From a virus: a stretch of 30,135 nt of DNA. Below are positions 3,501 through 10,973 of the stretch, piece after piece. A model generated the notes under the pieces. It did not search any database and was not told where the DNA came from. It saw only the letters and a program-made list of their open reading frames with translations. Position 1 is the stretch's first letter; every line of letters begins with the position of its first letter. The stretch is taken from positions 1-30,135 of the IMG/VR virus record IMGVR_UViG_3300007540_000061; one strand, 5' to 3'. The position numbers and the translations under genes are program-made.

Positions 3501-4172
3501 ATGGCTATCAATCTACAAAACACCAACACCGTATCGGCCAGCAGCATTAAGCTGCTGGTCTACGGCCAAGCGGGCGCAGGTAAAACCTCGCTTATCCCGA
3601 CCATGCCGAAGCCGGTGATATTGTCGGCGGAAGGCGGGCTGCTTTCTATCGCCGGGTCAGACATCCCGTTTATTGCAGTCAACAGCATGGACGAGCTGCG
3701 CGAGGCATATACATGGCTGGCTGGTTCCGACGAGGCCAGAGCATACGACAGCGTGGCGCTGGATAGTATTAGCGAGATTGCTGAAGTTTGCCTCGGTAAT
3801 GAAAAGGCCAAAGCGAAAGACCCGCGTCAGGCATATGGCGAAATGCAAACGACTATGGCGGAGGCTATCCGGTCATTCCGCGATTTGCCAAAGCACGTTC
3901 TGATGACGGCCAAGCTGGAAAAGTCACAGGATGAAATGGGCAGGATGCTTTACAGCCCATCGATGCCGGGTAACAAGACCGGCCAATCGCTGCCGTATTT
4001 CTTTGATCTGATGCTCGCCCTGCGGGTTGAAAAGGATGCCGAAGGCGTATCGCAGCGCGGCCTGATGTGTGACAGCGACGGGTTATGGCAAGCCAAAGAC
4101 CGCAGCGGCAAGCTGGATCAGTGGGAAAGCGCAGACCTTGGCGCGATCATTTCCAAACTTGGAGCAAAATAA
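3501..4172 (+). CDS. Sak4-like RecA-fold ATPase (AAA_24)
   Basis: A 223-residue ATP-binding protein. Walker A is GQAGAGKTS at residues 22-30; Walker B is the hydrophobic-Asp run YDSVALDSISE near residue 95; MTAKLEKSQDEMGR and GNKTGQSLPYFFD follow, as in the phage AAA_24 family. Phage members of this family (Sak4) act with a single-strand binding protein to anneal or pair DNA during phage recombination. The following DUF669 gene fits the SSB-like partner. A strong ribosome binding site (CAGGAGATA) precedes the ATG, and its TAA overlaps the next ATG (TAATG). The ATPase fold is sure; the recombinase role is inferred from neighbours. Confidence 0.85.
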   Translation: MAINLQNTNTVSASSIKLLVYGQAGAGKTSLIPTMPKPVILSAEGGLLSIAGSDIPFIAVNSMDELREAYTWLAGSDEARAYDSVALDSISEIAEVCLGNEKAKAKDPRQAYGEMQTTMAEAIRSFRDLPKHVLMTAKLEKSQDEMGRMLYSPSMPGNKTGQSLPYFFDLMLALRVEKDAEGVSQRGLMCDSDGLWQAKDRSGKLDQWESADLGAIISKLGAK

Positions 4173-4555
4173 TGGACCTTGGAAATCTTAGCCAGAACTG
4201 GCTTGACGCAAAGCAAGCCGAAAAGGTCGCAACCGAACGTCGGCGCGAACTAGAAGACAAATTACTTTCGTTAATCGGCGTTGCCGAAAATATGGAGGGT
4301 ACTGAAAATTTTGAAACGGACGGAGGATATAAAATCAAAATCACTGGACGCATGAGCCGTAAAGTCAACGGCGAACGCATTCAAGAAATTGCAGCGGAAG
4401 AAGGGCTAACAGATCATTTGCAGAGCCTGTTCCGTTGGAAGCCGGAGGTCAATATGTCAGCGTGGAAAAGCGCAGACAAAGCGATCACCGGGCCGCTACT
4501 TGACGGCATTACCACCCAGCCCGGACGGGCTTCAATCACCATTACAAAGGGATAA
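4172..4555 (+). CDS. Conserved phage protein of recombination cassette
   Basis: A 127-residue protein, starting at the ATG that overlaps the TAA of the ATPase gene. An upstream in-frame start at 4085 is less likely because it would overlap the ATPase by 88 bases. The N-terminus is a charged helix (KQAEKVATERRRELEDKLL), then a two-stranded part (GGYKIKITGRMSRKVN) and WKPEVNMSAWKSAD. Proteins of this shape commonly sit between the Sak4-like ATPase and the DUF669 gene in phages, so it is probably part of the same recombination machinery. I do not know its activity. Confidence 0.75.
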   Translation: MDLGNLSQNWLDAKQAEKVATERRRELEDKLLSLIGVAENMEGTENFETDGGYKIKITGRMSRKVNGERIQEIAAEEGLTDHLQSLFRWKPEVNMSAWKSADKAITGPLLDGITTQPGRASITITKG

Positions 4556-4559
4556 TCTA

Positions 4560-5036
4560 ATGGCTTTTCTTAACCAAACTTTTGACATTGCCGAAATGCC
4601 GGTTACGGAACAACGCAGTTTCGACCCGGTTCCAGCCGGATGGTACACCGCAGCGATTGCGGGGGCCGAACTAAAAACCACTAAGGCCGGAACAGGTAAC
4701 TACATCGCGGTGCGGTTTGACATCACCGGCCCGGAGCATCAGGGGCGTGTGGTGTTTACAAACCTAAACACCCGCAACCCAAACCCGAAAGCGGAGGAAA
4801 TCGGTCGGGCGCAGCTTGGTGACATCATGCGGGCAACTGGCATTGCAAAGTTGGAAGATACGGACCAGCTACTCGGCGGCAATTTGTCAATCAAGGTCAC
4901 GGTCAAAAACGACCCGACCTATGGTCCGGGCAACGAAGTCAAGGGCTTTAAGGCCGTTGACGGTTCCACACCGCCAATAGCCGCCGCACCCGCTGCGGCT
5001 GCACCATCCGCCGCCCCGCCTTGGGCAGCTAAATAG
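4560..5036 (+). CDS. DUF669 family, SSB-like protein
   Basis: A 158-residue protein of the DUF669 family: an N-terminal FDIAEMPVTEQRSFDPVPAG, the strand YTAAIAGAELKTTKAGTGNY, then IAVRFDITGPEHQGRVVFTN and a helix with IGRAQLGDIMRATG. The last 25 residues are a flexible Ala/Pro tail ending in PPWAAK, similar to the intrinsically disordered tails of single-strand binding proteins. The family is usually found beside phage recombinases, as here. The ATG at 4560 was chosen over the upstream start at 4500 because it is spaced just after the stop of the preceding gene and matches the family N-terminus. The role as a single-strand DNA-binding partner is inferred. Confidence 0.82.
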   Translation: MAFLNQTFDIAEMPVTEQRSFDPVPAGWYTAAIAGAELKTTKAGTGNYIAVRFDITGPEHQGRVVFTNLNTRNPNPKAEEIGRAQLGDIMRATGIAKLEDTDQLLGGNLSIKVTVKNDPTYGPGNEVKGFKAVDGSTPPIAAAPAAAAPSAAPPWAAK

Positions 5037-5043
5037 CAAGGAA

Positions 5044-5074
5044 GGCCGGGGGCTAATAACCCTCGGCCACTTTT
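5044..5074 (+). terminator. Intercistronic hairpin, possibly leaky terminator
   Basis: GGCCG(G)GGG pairs with CCC(T)CGGCC around the loop CTAATAA, and is followed by ACTTTTAC. It lies between the DUF669 gene and the nuclease gene, only nine bases from the ATG at 5077, and the U run is short. It probably attenuates transcription or shapes translation of the nuclease gene, whose ribosome binding site is weak. Confidence 0.5.
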
Positions 5075-5076
5075 AC

Positions 5077-6120
5077 ATGACAGCAATACCCCCACCCATT
5101 CACAGCATTGCCAATCTGATTGACGAACACCACGCCAGCCAGCCGGACGAACCGCGTCTGCACTTGGGCGGCTCTATGCTGGGCCATCCGTGCGACCGCT
5201 GGCTCTGGTTGTCGTTTCGCTGGGCAGTACGTGAAAAGTTTCCCGGTCGTATTCGCCGCTTGTTTCGGCGTGGTAACAATGAGGAGGACATTATCACGGA
5301 CGATCTCAAAGCCATCGGCATTGACATCAACAGCACAGGCGATCAGCAGCGTTTTATTAAATTCGGATCGCACGTTGGCGGATCGGTTGACGGCATCATT
5401 GAGTCCGGCGTTCCCGGTGCCGAGAAAACCCGCCATATTGCGGAGTACAAAACCCACGCCAAAAAGTCTTTTGAAGATTTGGAAAAGAAGGGTGTGCAAG
5501 TATCCAAGCCAATGCACTGGGCGCAGATGCAGGTCTATATGCTTGGCACCAAGATCGAACGTGCGCTGTACGTTGCCATCTGCAAGGACGACGACCGGCT
5601 TTACACCGAACGCGTAAAATATGATGCAGAAGCCGCCAAGAACCTACTAGATCGCGGACGGCGCATCGCCACGACCGAACGCATCCCTGCACCGATATCA
5701 ACAGACGCAAGCTGGTATCAGTGCAAATTCTGTCCGGCGCATAGCTTCTGCCATAAAAAGCAACTAACCCAGCACGTTAATTGCCGGACATGCGCTCACG
5801 CCACACCGGAGGATGATGGCACATGGTCGTGCGCTAGATGGGAAAGCAAAAACATTCCCGGCGATTTCCAGAAAACCGGCTGCGATAGCCATGTTCTGCA
5901 CCCTGATTTGGTGCCGTGGCCTGTAAAAAACAGCAACACGCCACACGAAGCCGTGTATGAGATTAACGGCAAGGACATCCGCAACGGTGAAGGTGACGCT
6001 TACGTTTACAGCAGCAAGGAATTGATCGCTGGTGGCGAAGCTTGCGCGAACGAATTAGTCGGGCAAGCGCGGGCGATGTTTCCGGGGTCCAGAATTGTAG
6101 ACGACGAGGTGCCTTTCTGA
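5077..6120 (+). CDS. Cas4/RecB-like PD-(D/E)XK nuclease with Cys clusters
   Basis: A 347-residue nuclease. The active site is visible as E70 (NNEEDI), D105 in GGSVDGI, and E123/K125 in AEYKTH, followed by a QMQ-type motif around 150. One Cys near the N-terminus (C39) and three after the core (C216, C219, C225 in CKFCPAHSFC) match the 4Fe-4S arrangement of Cas4 and AddB. A further Cys set (C236, C239, C252, C269) forms a probable second metal site, then about 75 residues finish the protein. Phage relatives are 5'-3' exonucleases or helicase-nuclease components that make single strands for the annealing protein. The next gene, an SF2 helicase, overlaps its stop (TGATG context), so the two proteins likely work together. 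Cluster type is inferred from spacing. Confidence 0.85.
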   Translation: MTAIPPPIHSIANLIDEHHASQPDEPRLHLGGSMLGHPCDRWLWLSFRWAVREKFPGRIRRLFRRGNNEEDIITDDLKAIGIDINSTGDQQRFIKFGSHVGGSVDGIIESGVPGAEKTRHIAEYKTHAKKSFEDLEKKGVQVSKPMHWAQMQVYMLGTKIERALYVAICKDDDRLYTERVKYDAEAAKNLLDRGRRIATTERIPAPISTDASWYQCKFCPAHSFCHKKQLTQHVNCRTCAHATPEDDGTWSCARWESKNIPGDFQKTGCDSHVLHPDLVPWPVKNSNTPHEAVYEINGKDIRNGEGDAYVYSSKELIAGGEACANELVGQARAMFPGSRIVDDEVPF

Positions 6121-7706
6121 TGCTCCGTGATTACCAGCGCCGCACCATTGATCAGCTTTACAAGTGGTTCGCGGATGGTCGTAAAGGCCATCCGTGCATT
6201 GAACTTCCGACCGGATCAGGCAAAAGCCATATCGTTGCTGCGCTCTGCAAAGAGGCAATCCAGACATGGCCGGAAACCCGCATATTGATGCTGACGCACG
6301 TTAAAGAACTGATCGAACAAAACGCTGAAAAGATGCGCGATCATTGGCCAAACGCACCGCTAGGCATTTATTCGGCGGGTATGCGACGGCGGGATATTGG
6401 CGAACCGATTACGTTTGCCGGTATTCAGTCCGTGCGGAATAAAGCTGACCAGATCGGTCACGTTGATCTAGTGCTGATTGATGAATGTCATCTGGTCAGC
6501 CACAAACAGGAGGGCGGCTACCGCAAGCTAATTGACGACCTGACACTAATCAACCCGGCGCTGCGGGTGATTGGCCTCACGGCCACCCCGTACAGGCTGG
6601 GCCACGGCTATATCACCGACGAGCCAGCGTTGTTTTCGGATATCATTGCACCTGTCAGTATCGAAGAATTGATATTTAAGAAACACCTCGCACCACTGCG
6701 ATCAAAGTTGACGGCGCACAAGTTGTCGGTTGACGGCGTCCACAAGCGCGGCGGCGAATACATCGAAAGCGAACTGCAAGCCGCCGTGGATACAGACGAT
6801 CACAATGCGGCAACGGTGGATGAAGTTATTAGCTTGGCCGGTGATCGCAAATCATGGCTGTTCTTTTGTGCCGGTGTAAAACACGCATATAACGTGGCGG
6901 ATATTTTGAATGCTCGCGGCATTGTCGCCGCAACGATTACAGGCGAAACGCCAAAAGCAGAACGTGAGCGGATCATTGCCGGTTTTAAGTCTGGCGATAT
7001 TCAGGCGCTTACAAACGCAAACGTCCTGACGACTGGGTTCGATCATCCTGACCTCGACCTGATTGCTATGCTCCGGCCAACGCTATCCACCGGCTTGTAT
7101 GTGCAGATGGCTGGGCGCGGAATGCGCCCTAAGAGTCACACCGACCATTGCCTTGTGTTGGATTTTGCCGGGGTCGTGCAGACGCACGGCCCTATCACAG
7201 CGGTCAATCCTAAAAAGCCTTCAGGCAAAGGTGAGGGTGAAGCGCCGGTCAAAGCGTGTGAGAATTGTTTTGAGTTAAACCACATATCTGCCAAAGAATG
7301 CGTTGCTTGCGGCGAACTATTCCCAGCGCCGAAACCAAACAAGCAAAAATTGCACGACGACGACATCATGGGTCTGGACACGACCGAAATGAGCGTGACC
7401 GAATGGCAATGGCGTCGGCATATAAGCCGCGCCAGTGGCAAGGAAATGCTGATGGTGACGTATTATGGCGCACTGTCGGACAAGCCGGTCAATGAGTACC
7501 TGACGGTGATGCACGACGGGTATGCCGGACAGAAGGCGCGGGTGTCGTTGGTCAAGATTGCCAGTAACGCGGGAGTCCACGGCGTAACGCTTGATAACCA
7601 GTTGGACGATGTAGCATTTGATCTGAACAAAGCGACGCCACCTGCATCAATTAAATTTAGGCAGGATGGCAAATTTTATCGCGTAACGGATAGGAGGTGG
7701 GGATGA
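6120..7706 (+). CDS. SF2 DEAD/DEAH-type helicase with zinc ribbon
   Basis: A 528-residue superfamily 2 helicase. A Q-motif-like LRDYQ starts the protein, Walker A is LPTGSGKS at 29-36, motif II is DECH at 121-124, motif III is GLTATPYR and motif VI is QMAGRGMRP. After the second RecA domain there is a CENC...CVAC zinc ribbon and a C-terminal domain of about 150 residues. The ATG at 6120 overlaps the stop of the nuclease gene; the longer open frame from 6042 lies inside that gene and is unlikely. Such phage helicases act in branch migration, origin opening or recombination with a nuclease partner. It ends overlapping the VRR-NUC gene. Confidence 0.88.
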   Translation: MLRDYQRRTIDQLYKWFADGRKGHPCIELPTGSGKSHIVAALCKEAIQTWPETRILMLTHVKELIEQNAEKMRDHWPNAPLGIYSAGMRRRDIGEPITFAGIQSVRNKADQIGHVDLVLIDECHLVSHKQEGGYRKLIDDLTLINPALRVIGLTATPYRLGHGYITDEPALFSDIIAPVSIEELIFKKHLAPLRSKLTAHKLSVDGVHKRGGEYIESELQAAVDTDDHNAATVDEVISLAGDRKSWLFFCAGVKHAYNVADILNARGIVAATITGETPKAERERIIAGFKSGDIQALTNANVLTTGFDHPDLDLIAMLRPTLSTGLYVQMAGRGMRPKSHTDHCLVLDFAGVVQTHGPITAVNPKKPSGKGEGEAPVKACENCFELNHISAKECVACGELFPAPKPNKQKLHDDDIMGLDTTEMSVTEWQWRRHISRASGKEMLMVTYYGALSDKPVNEYLTVMHDGYAGQKARVSLVKIASNAGVHGVTLDNQLDDVAFDLNKATPPASIKFRQDGKFYRVTDRRWG

Positions 7707-8041
7707 AAACCGAACACGAAGAACAGCGCGAGTTTGTGCGGTGGGTTCGTCAGACATATCCCGGCGTTCGCATATTTGCCATCCCCAACGGCGGGCAACG
7801 AAGCCGCACCACAGGTGCGAAGCTCAAAGCGGAAGGCGTCAGCGCCGGAGTGCCTGATCTTTATATCCCCGCATGGCGATGCTGGGTTGAGATGAAACGG
7901 GAGAAGGGTGGCAAACTTTCGCCGGTTCAGAAGGATTGGATCGCGTATCTTGAAAGCATCGGTGACACGGTGATCGTCGGGCATGGCTGCGATGACGCGA
8001 AAAATAAAATCAGAAACATGAAGAAAAGCACTTGCACTTAG
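7703..8041 (+). CDS. VRR-NUC nuclease
   Basis: A 112-residue stand-alone VRR-NUC domain, a PD-(D/E)XK endonuclease fold known from phage proteins and FAN1. Visible motifs: an early Glu in HEEQREFVRW, IPNGGQR, then GVSAGVPDLYI with the metal-binding Asp, WVEMKRE with the Glu and Lys, and KLSPVQKDWI. TAGGAGG stands five bases before the ATG at 7703, which overlaps the helicase stop; a GTG two codons earlier is inside the ribosome binding site. It probably cuts branched or flapped DNA made by the preceding helicase and nuclease. Its last codon lies inside the next promoter. Confidence 0.88.
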   Translation: MKTEHEEQREFVRWVRQTYPGVRIFAIPNGGQRSRTTGAKLKAEGVSAGVPDLYIPAWRCWVEMKREKGGKLSPVQKDWIAYLESIGDTVIVGHGCDDAKNKIRNMKKSTCT

Positions 8042-8861: not shown

Positions 8862-9241
8862 TGGGCAAAACTTTCATGTGCCAGCACTGCAAGAAGCCTA
8901 TGACAAGAACGCCGAAGCTGATTGCGGTGGGCAATGCGTTCCACCCGGAGTGCTTTAACGAGTTGTATGAGTTGCAGCGCGAGAAGGATCGTAAGCGCGA
9001 AACGAAGCTGCTTGATAAGGCGGGGCGCGATCAATATTGGGTGCGCTTTGAGGCGAAGCTGAGTTTCAGGGAAGCTGAGGCAAAACGTAAGGAAGATGAA
9101 GCCGAACGTGCGGCGAAGGCACTTGCCCGGCCACGCAAAACAGTTGAAGATGTGTGGGCAGAGAAATTGGCGGGCAGGCGGTTTGAAGACGCCGTTCATG
9201 TGCCGCAGGAAAGGTTACTTGTTAGTGGTCCATGCTTTTAA
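8858..9241 (+). CDS. Cys-rich, coiled-coil hypothetical protein (127 aa)
   Basis: The first 35 residues form a probable zinc site: CQHC near residue 8-11 and HPEC near 29-32, a C2HC pattern. A long charged helix follows (residues 40-95, with many Glu, Arg and Lys), then RKTVEDVWAEKLAGRRFEDA. Two adjacent ATGs are possible; the first overlaps the stop of the gene before. The gene looks like a small nucleic-acid or protein-binding factor. I do not recognise the family. Confidence 0.65.
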   Translation: MMGKTFMCQHCKKPMTRTPKLIAVGNAFHPECFNELYELQREKDRKRETKLLDKAGRDQYWVRFEAKLSFREAEAKRKEDEAERAAKALARPRKTVEDVWAEKLAGRRFEDAVHVPQERLLVSGPCF

Positions 9242-9404
9242 CGCCGCAAGACGTTTTGTCCGGTTCTACGCAGAATACATTGAATGTGATTTCTGCGGAG
9301 AGCCGACACGCGGTCGCGTATACGATCAAACGCAGGAGGTTATTTGCGGTGCTTGCGGGAAGATATTGCTTATTGTAGATTCAAAACCAGTTTACGAGGT
9401 TTAA
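9225..9404 (+). CDS. Zinc-ribbon protein, probable GTG start
   Basis: A protein of about 59 residues with two CXXC pairs (ECDFCGE and ICGACGK), a typical zinc ribbon. The frame is open from 9096, but that part overlaps the preceding gene. AGGAAAGG at 9207-9214 supports a GTG start at 9225 (TTG at 9219 is an alternative). It is the last gene of the rightward operon and ends 24 bases before the terminator. Such small ribbons bind nucleic acid or RNA polymerase in other phages; that role is only a possibility here. Confidence 0.55.
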   Translation: MVHAFNAARRFVRFYAEYIECDFCGEPTRGRVYDQTQEVICGACGKILLIVDSKPVYEV

Positions 9405-9428
9405 GTTCTTTTGGTTTTTCCCTGAACT

Positions 9429-9455
9429 AACCCGCCTGTTGGCGGGTTCTTTTTT
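9429..9455 (+). terminator. Rho-independent terminator of rightward operon
   Basis: AACCCGCC-TGTT-GGCGGGTT is a perfect 8-bp stem, followed by CTTTTTT on the plus strand. It ends the rightward genes just where the leftward late region ends. Confidence 0.88.
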
Positions 9456-9513
9456 ACACGCTAATCATATCCGGGTTGAACGTGTGCCGAGCAACTTCCC
9501 CGTACTCCCTGTG
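9454..9513 (-). pseudogene. Diverged 3' end of a second metallophosphoesterase gene
   Basis: Read in the right frame, this stretch encodes HREYGEVARHTFNPDMISV and a stop. The metallophosphoesterase at 9753-10973 ends HKEYGEVARHTFNPDMLSA. Sixteen of 19 residues agree and there are no gaps. Most base changes are at third codon positions, so the fragment diverged while still coding and is not a recent copy. Upstream the match stops at the GCACAGGG junction. The first 57 bases are now read in another frame by the small gene at 9461-9652. Confidence 0.85.
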
Positions 9514-9652
9514 CCATCAGGCGACCCGTTGCGTGGCAGGCTAAACGATATGCCGCGTCACGCCCTTCAGGGTAGCGGCTGTATGCCGTGCCAAGAAACC
9601 AATACGAGTGTCCGGCCATTGCCTTGAGGCGGTGAAAGTTCTCTGCGTCCAT
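9461..9652 (-). CDS. Small moron-like gene with a scrambled C-terminus
   Basis: A 63-residue reading frame. Residues 1-50 look like a genuine soluble protein (HSYWFLGTAYSRYPEGRDAA, then a helix with ACHATGRLMAQGV). The last 13 residues are read out of frame through the metallophosphoesterase remnant (9454-9513), so the native C-terminus has been lost or replaced. A strong AAGGAGG at 9664-9670 lies 11 bases before the ATG, so the gene is probably translated. It has its own promoter-like sequence and lies after the last gene of the late operon. I do not recognise the family. Confidence 0.6.
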   Translation of the reverse strand: MDAENFHRLKAMAGHSYWFLGTAYSRYPEGRDAAYRLACHATGRLMAQGVRGSCSAHVQPGYD

Positions 9653-9701
9653 TGTTTGGGTGGCCTCCTTGTCCTTTATACGCTTTTCCGTTTATATGTG
9701 T

Positions 9702-9730
9702 TTTATGCGGGTATTCGTATAATTGCCCAA
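9702..9730 (-). promoter_or_regulatory. Possible promoter of the moron-like gene
   Basis: On the minus strand TTGGGC (9730-9725) is followed after 17 bases by CATAAA (9707-9702). The surrounding DNA is AT-rich, and other -10-like sequences (TATAAA at 9696-9691) are present, so the exact elements are uncertain. Confidence 0.3.
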
Positions 9731-9754
9731 CAAATTAAAATTTGCTTGGCAATT
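9721..9754. repeat. Palindrome at the end of the metallophosphoesterase gene
   Basis: AATTGCC (9721-9727) pairs with GGCAATT (9748-9754), and CAAATT (9731-9736) pairs with AATTTG (9739-9744) around AA. It overlaps the stop codon of the metallophosphoesterase. No U run follows on the minus strand, so it may be an operator, a site of insertion or a weak 3' end structure rather than a terminator. Confidence 0.6.
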
Positions 9755-10973
9755 ACGCTGACAGCATATCGGGGTTGAAAGTATGTCGTGCCACTTCGCC
9801 ATATTCCTTGTGCAAGACTATAGCTTTCATATCACGCTTGGAGCGATACCCTTTTTCTGAGTGCCACGCATCCTTTGCAGCTAGCACGCGGAAGCTCTCG
9901 CACTTTACTCCGGGGAACTCTTGCGTCGCGTCGTGATGGACGTGGCCGGTCCACCAGAACCGATGTTCTGTCTCGCCCCAATCGGTAGCCCGGTCGTGCG
10001 CCATAAGTAACGGCAGGTCTTTCATCTTCACGGTGTCGCCGTGGTGAATGCCAATCAGGCACTTGCCGAAGCGGTAATAGTGGAACTTCGCGGGGGATGT
10101 GTCGATGGTGACGCGCGGCTCACCTTCGTAAACATTCTCCAGCGCCTCCATCAAAAATATGCTGGATGACGGATCGTGGTTTCCGCGCTCGACAATGACG
10201 TGCACTGCTTTGTGACGAACAAGTGCAGCCTTGATGAGATAGCGGGTAGACCGGACGGCTGCGCGCACCATCTTGGGATAACGACCATCTGCGTCGAGCG
10301 TGTTTCTGCTGGCCGGTGTCTCTGGCACGAAGCTGTCGTAGTGGAGCAGGTCACCCATCAGTGTGATAAGCGCCTGCTTGCACGGCGGGGCCGCCTTGAC
10401 CAAATGGTCGAACGCGCCGACCAAAAGCTGCTCTGCTATCTCTAGGTCGTAATCATCACCAGTTTCTTCACGCCACGATAGCATACCGAAGTGGTGGTCC
10501 GATACGTTGTAGCACGCCAGCAGATTGTCGGCTGTACTTGTTGGGCCAACAAGAGCCTTTGCTTTGGGTATTGCATCGACCATACCCTGCACGGCCTCTC
10601 GCAGCATCTGCTCCTGCCGTTCCTGCTCGATGGTGGTTTTAACCCACTCGCCCTTAATGCTGCCGTCTGCTGCGTAGTAGGTGGATCGGCCCTTTACCCT
10701 ATAGCCGTCGGGTGCTGTCCCCTCAAAATCTGCGCGCCCCTCTGGCCCGGACCACAACGACCAGTCGGCTTCTCTGTACACCTGCGCGGCTACGCTGTAC
10801 CAGCTACCAGAAGCACCCGACGTTTTACCGAACTCCGCTCCTGCGGCTGCGACAGCCCCCTGCGCGCCATTAGATGCTGAAACGCCGCGAGGCGGGTGCC
10901 CCAAGCGAAGTTTTTCTTCGACCAGCTCGATGCGCCTCTTGGCGTCTTCTTTAGATAGCGGTGGTGCTGGCAA
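9753..10973 (-). CDS. Calcineurin-like metallophosphoesterase with N-terminal helical domain
   Basis: A 406-residue enzyme. The metal-binding motifs are in order: D159xH161 (SDHH), GD at 207-208, GNHD at 264-267, HHGD at 310-313 and GHVHHD at 343-348. The first ~150 residues precede the catalytic domain; residues 7-60 (SKEDAKRRIELVEEKL, then a Gly/Ala-rich helix) look like a helix-turn-helix, as in other phage proteins of this architecture. It has no in-frame ATG before residue 123; the TTG at 10973 is the best start and lies 23 bases inside the lysozyme gene, so it is probably translationally coupled. Substrate unknown: phosphodiesters of nucleic acids or nucleotides. It is the last canonical gene of the late operon. 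Confidence 0.85.
   Translation of the reverse strand: MPAPPLSKEDAKRRIELVEEKLRLGHPPRGVSASNGAQGAVAAAGAEFGKTSGASGSWYSVAAQVYREADWSLWSGPEGRADFEGTAPDGYRVKGRSTYYAADGSIKGEWVKTTIEQERQEQMLREAVQGMVDAIPKAKALVGPTSTADNLLACYNVSDHHFGMLSWREETGDDYDLEIAEQLLVGAFDHLVKAAPPCKQALITLMGDLLHYDSFVPETPASRNTLDADGRYPKMVRAAVRSTRYLIKAALVRHKAVHVIVERGNHDPSSSIFLMEALENVYEGEPRVTIDTSPAKFHYYRFGKCLIGIHHGDTVKMKDLPLLMAHDRATDWGETEHRFWWTGHVHHDATQEFPGVKCESFRVLAAKDAWHSEKGYRSKRDMKAIVLHKEYGEVARHTFNPDMLSA

Follow-up and report, generated by a model that had tools for sequence, protein, structure and literature searches.

A probable scar of recombination between two related phages at the 3' end of a metallophosphoesterase gene

How does a phage gene come to possess its own 3' end twice? 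The window analysed here, the whole 30,135-nucleotide stretch of IMG/VR virus record IMGVR_UViG_3300007540_000061, carries a metallophosphoesterase (MPE) gene with its last 19 codons in place at 9753-9813; a second version of them lies detached from the gene at 9454-9513, and a small gene separates the two (Table 1). The original prediction, made from the sequence alone, read this as a moron-like cassette of about 300 bp, acquired by recombination at a gene end and supplying a new end to its target much as integrating elements do, with the broken copy as the old allele. The historical part of that reading proved largely right, and the interpretation as a whole is partly supported. Our analysis indicates that the locus is very probably the scar of a recombination between two related phages, with a homeologous join on the left, a microhomology join on the right and a tract from an unsampled relative between them.

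Table 1 Features of the duplicated gene end and of the candidate recombination genes in the window
Feature	Position	Strand	Remarks
Sak4-like single-strand annealing protein (phrog_124)	3501..4172	+	candidate recombinase; E 6e-55
SSB-like protein (DUF669, phrog_6015)	4557..5036	+	probable Sak4 partner
Cas4-domain exonuclease (phrog_1990)	5077..6120	+	E 2.5e-100
Terminator hairpin	9429..9448	+	T run on + strand; meeting point of two convergent transcription units
Old MPE 3' end of the recipient (remnant)	9454..9513	-	last 19 codons + stop; identical to L002/L013
Present 63-aa ORF	9461..9652	-	DUF1937 fragment + 13 residues out of frame from old MPE tail
5' fragment of a DUF1937 (PF09152) gene	9503..9652	-	50 codons; residues 16-50 match family; remainder of domain missing
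Right-hand junction GCACAGGGAGT	9504..9514	-	A-Q-G-V in the DUF1937 frame; also fits recipient MPE DNA
Ribosome binding site of small gene	9664..9670	-	AAGGAGG
Hairpin directly 3' of donor MPE stop	9718..9756	-	within incoming tract; -16.1 kcal/mol, z -5.9
Donor allele of MPE 3' end	9753..9873	-	88/116 vs L002, 89/91 just upstream; maximum-likelihood breakpoint
MPE gene	9753..10973	-	406 aa, phrog_704 'DNA repair exonuclease'; intact, 3' end foreign

Translation of the minus strand confirmed that the repeat is real. It yields HKEYGEVARHTFNPDMLSA and a stop at 9753-9813, and HREYGEVARHTFNPDMISV and a stop at 9454-9513; 16 of the 19 residues are identical and ten codons differ in DNA only, encoding the same residue, both as predicted. 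An automatic repeat finder run on the window did not detect the pair because the copies are too diverged to leave an exact seed. The present allele, the incoming one, ends in VLHKEYGEVARHTFNPDMLSA.

An MPE protein search of the viral contigs in IMG/VR retrieved 22 contigs, among which the empty site was found. In IMGVR 3300044674_001925 (L002, L026) and 3300044676_000766 (L013), the last codons of an intact MPE equal the remnant base for base and are followed by the same terminator as in the window. A third contig (L021/L027) shows the same arrangement as L002, its MPE ending in the close variant HREHGEVARHTFNPDMLSV. Relatives with an intact enzyme and an HREYGEVARH-type end directly before the terminator, which the original prediction had anticipated, thus exist in L002 and L013. 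A chance alignment of the two ends is excluded, because the intact genes of L002/L026 and L013 end in remnant-identical DNA. From the junction onward, the window matches L002/L013 over 96 bp without a mismatch, through the terminator, with three differences in the next ~150 bp. Since relatives carry exactly the DNA of the remnant at the end of an intact MPE before the same terminator, the remnant is the original MPE end of the recipient, that is, the old allele that it had been taken for. The perfect match to L002 over 96 bp further argues that the event was recent relative to the divergence of these phages.

The small protein found no match in Pfam or PHROGs, nothing over noise among annotated phages and no relative among genome contigs; among viral contigs only its MPE-derived end matched, and the 63-aa form is unique. 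Its identity was first seen from the gene directly after the MPE in L033 (IMGVR 3300050821_004201), which starts MSYWYLGSPYSKYPAGVAAAFKAVCIEAGRLIRVGVPVYSPI and belongs to DUF1937 (PF09152, E 3.7e-21). The fragment in the window is 51% identical to this gene product over 35 residues. With a profile built from 51 phage DUF1937 proteins it scored 44.5 bits (E 2e-11), compared with 14.9 bits for the best of 20,000 shuffles; the DUF1937 model of Pfam itself leaves the 37-aa piece unreported.

Only profile positions 2-37 are matched, so that about two thirds of the complete domain (~113 residues) is missing. The match stops at a conserved Gly-Val, after which the family goes on [P]-V-x-[SC]-P-I-x-H-x-H(-P) (P often), and the bases right after Gly-Val in the window are recipient MPE DNA: DUF1937 homology ends exactly where the old MPE starts. 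No piece of the remainder of the gene was found anywhere in the window. Because the match stops at old MPE DNA and no other DUF1937 piece is present, the 63-aa ORF is a piece of a DUF1937 gene to which 13 nonsense residues have been added at the end. The strong ribosome binding site and the run out of frame into the remnant are as predicted. The ORF resembles the family (for example structure 1t1j) in that its residues 16-50 match the N-terminal part, but differs from functional members in the loss of most of the domain, and we infer that the truncated gene is non-functional.

Either the fragment or the MPE tail might nevertheless have been kept for a function; a small regulatory protein is one example, a conserved landing sequence next to the terminator another. 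The frame is open up to the joint, the ribosome binding site is intact and, in a second phage (L028/L030), an otherwise deleted MPE likewise retains its tail at the same terminator. However, after an event as recent as the 96-bp match implies, open frames need no selection, and a protein unique in form and lacking two thirds of its domain makes retention for function improbable.

Elsewhere, DUF1937 is a full gene of ~110-130 aa behind an MPE. The MPE of L062 and L063 (sample 3300028925) is 59-65% identical to that of the window and is followed by DUF1937, whose match starts 33 bp after the MPE match ends, and then by a lysozyme-like gene; in L057 and L076 the two genes lie within ~300-500 bp of each other. 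Of 44 upstream neighbours of phage DUF1937 genes, a set that includes two annotated phages (PQ867843, MG592626) added by choice and both showing the MPE-DUF1937 order, 17 (~40%) have the phosphoesterase motif series; 13 match phrog_284. MPE followed by DUF1937 is therefore, in these gene neighbourhoods, a recurrent phage gene order, and because it recurs in relatives, a donor with the same order is to be expected. The two genes may form a functional pair; within the literature library searched, no paper on DUF1937 was found.

Across L033, L062, L063, L057, L076, L038, L042 and other DUF1937 loci, the gene often found upstream is an MPE, drawn from several phosphoesterase subfamilies. Nucleoside 2-deoxyribosyltransferase-like genes, with weak Pfam support, lie right behind MPE (or MPE-DUF1937) in L033 (6382-6963) and L036 (7998-8426), and the one in L033 adjoins a MazG-like gene, which makes a small nucleotide-metabolism neighbourhood.

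The left boundary of the foreign DNA lies inside the MPE. Identity to the L002 gene changes in blocks, from 246/251 at nt 600-850 to 91/118 at nt 868-985, 89/91 at nt 990-1080 and 88/116 at nt 1100-1215, and the last block is about equally distant from L002, L003, L004, L005 and L027 (81 to 91 of 116). The current tail of the gene is thus foreign, ~24% diverged over the last ~120 nt. The maximum-likelihood breakpoint is gene nt 1101 (window 9873), with a plausible range of about 9855-9890 (gene nt ~1085-1120). Because the breakpoint falls here, the tract would extend beyond the duplicated part to ~360 bp, more than the 300 bp between the repeats. Recombination with an incoming 3' end therefore stands from the original prediction, whereas the ~300-bp module does not, the tract including ~120 nt of MPE rather than 60. 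The donor tail allele, the DUF1937 fragment and the right junction are absent from every other IMG/VR contig.

A second diverged patch (window 9986-10106, nt ~868-988; 91/118 against L002) lies between near-identical blocks and is a further exchange tract, which shows that the MPE recombined more than once. Given this patch, the scar could have formed in two steps instead of one. The palindrome predicted between the copies is present as a strong, AT-rich hairpin (9718-9756, z -5.9) without a T run; in the donor it may have served, between MPE and DUF1937, to terminate transcription or as a processing site.

These boundaries also bear on the cassette reading, in which a self-contained small gene with its own promoter landed beside the MPE and, in the manner of an integrating element, gave the target its end back. 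In its favour, two gene ends flank a small ORF with a strong ribosome binding site, and an empty site exists. The ORF, however, is the truncated form of a gene that is complete, at ~110-130 aa, behind an MPE in other phages; the promoter-like sequence of the original prediction has no sigma-70-type match in 9200-10000; and the foreign tract starts ~120 nt inside the MPE, not at the repeat. On these grounds we rejected an autonomous gene. A site-specific integrating element was likewise rejected: the 360-bp tract has no integrase and no site-specific junction repeats, and its repeats are two alleles that have diverged, with the left breakpoint outside the repeat. Instead of target restoration, ordinary homologous exchange accounts for one side, while on the other two unrelated genes were joined illegitimately, each at an internal position, and we consider the cassette very unlikely.

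At the right-hand joint, the L002 gene reads ...GTGCTGCACAGGGAGTACGGGG... and the window ...CTGATGGCACAGGGAGTACGGGG..., with identity to the recipient from GCACAGGG onward; the recipient bases at the joint are GCACAGGGAGTACGG. Read in the DUF1937 frame, the first codons past the joint still give Gly-Val in the register of the family. Because a random recipient position would encode Gly-Val/Ile with p ~0.006, a join at microhomology is favoured, probably of about 5-15 bp (at least GGAGT, perhaps up to 15 bp). This length we infer, as the donor sequence is absent from the collection.

Two co-occurring phage strains could have been fused during assembly or library preparation, and a recombinant known from a single metagenomic contig, with a right junction absent from the rest of IMG/VR, would fit such a chimera. 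Yet the L002-like genome continues on either side of the tract, so that false joins at both ends would have to be assumed. At the right joint, where otherwise unrelated genes meet, the shared sequence is probably no more than ~15 bp, below usual assembly k-mers, and there is no N run. A chimera is therefore most unlikely. A tandem duplication of the MPE 3' end in situ, with later divergence of both copies, would explain their direct orientation but can be dismissed almost entirely: it is the remnant that matches relatives exactly, whereas the in-frame copy deviates; part of a different gene lies in the spacer; mostly synonymous changes would not build up in a dead copy; and L002/L013 refute it, unless they arose by deletion themselves.

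Recombination between two related phages, the reading that we favour, would have run as follows. The recipient would have been L002-like, with a lysozyme gene, an MPE ending in HREYGEVARHTFNPDMISV and the terminator; the donor, not yet sampled, would have carried an MPE with a 24%-diverged 3' end and then a DUF1937 gene. Homeologous exchange inside the MPE, within gene nt ~1085-1120, would have joined the donor strand on the left. On the right, the join would have formed inside DUF1937 at a short sequence (around GCACAGGGAGT) also present in the recipient MPE about 20 codons before its stop. The outcome would be a complete MPE with the donor end, a DUF1937 gene cut to its first ~50 codons and the last 19 MPE codons of the recipient left dead.

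Megablast of the whole window against known phages returned a single 86-bp helicase match. A helicase gene and a gene for a VRR-NUC protein (7697-8041) follow a single-strand annealing set at 3501-6120, in the order Sak4, phrog_2480, DUF669/SSB and Cas4-like exonuclease. For phage Red, efficient recombination of 22%-diverged DNA has been described, its joints falling in short blocks of identity; RecET joins repeats of 5-13 bp (PMC2327257). Mosaics of E. coli temperate phages are mainly homology-driven, via Rad52-like recombinases (PMC3945230), and Sak4, acting together with its SSB, anneals single strands and supports a low level of recombination (PMC5928155). The annealing was presumably done by the phage's own Sak4, SSB and exonuclease.

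Two known processes resemble this event. Homology-facilitated illegitimate recombination is known in S. pneumoniae, A. baylyi and P. stutzeri, and in E. coli (PMC3240628); there, as here, one end is joined by homology and the other non-homologously, and foreign DNA is added beside the homology. In the window, one junction lies in a homologous gene (the left breakpoint in the MPE) and the other (9504-9514) is non-homologous, its donor side deduced from the DUF1937 family; the recipient allele was found (L002, L013), with no donor match among IMG/VR contigs. However, that process is described for transformation or conjugation into chromosomes, whereas this exchange would have taken place between phage genomes, with a related phage as donor and both flanks L002-like. 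In relaxed, homeologous recombination by phage annealases such as Red beta, RecT and Erf (PMC2327257, PMC3945230), patches of ~20-25% divergence are likewise exchanged inside a gene with joints in short identical blocks, and the window phage has its own Sak4, SSB and exonuclease. It differs in that one joint here lies between unrelated genes, one of them truncated, and the part assigned to Sak4 is deduced. We conclude that this is a known kind of event, ordinary phage recombination, unusually well resolved.

The same gene end has left another trace. A remnant-type tail in phages that lack any MPE but carry the small gene would have spoken against the original prediction. Such a tail does occur without the MPE, but also without the small gene, in L028 (2335-2427) and L030 (1419-1511), where the last 32 codons of an otherwise deleted MPE lie between the lysozyme gene and the same terminator; it is best read as a second, independent deletion relic. 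Together with the scar in the window, this tail hints at two products of a favoured exchange point, from two cases only. That the MPE 3' end by the terminator is a preferred Sak4-type exchange point, behind which modules (terminator, DUF1937, others) are swapped repeatedly, is a tentative idea that we hold to be rather unlikely.

Phage mosaicism is usually visible only as swapped modules, and the origin of the joints is debated. Here the recipient allele, the foreign allele and the joint can be followed base by base, with one joint homologous and the other illegitimate and gene-destroying. A small orphan ORF, of a sort common among the 'hypothetical proteins' of phages, finds its explanation as a truncated gene, and the locus points to a pair of phage genes, metallophosphoesterase and DUF1937, that recurs but has been little studied.
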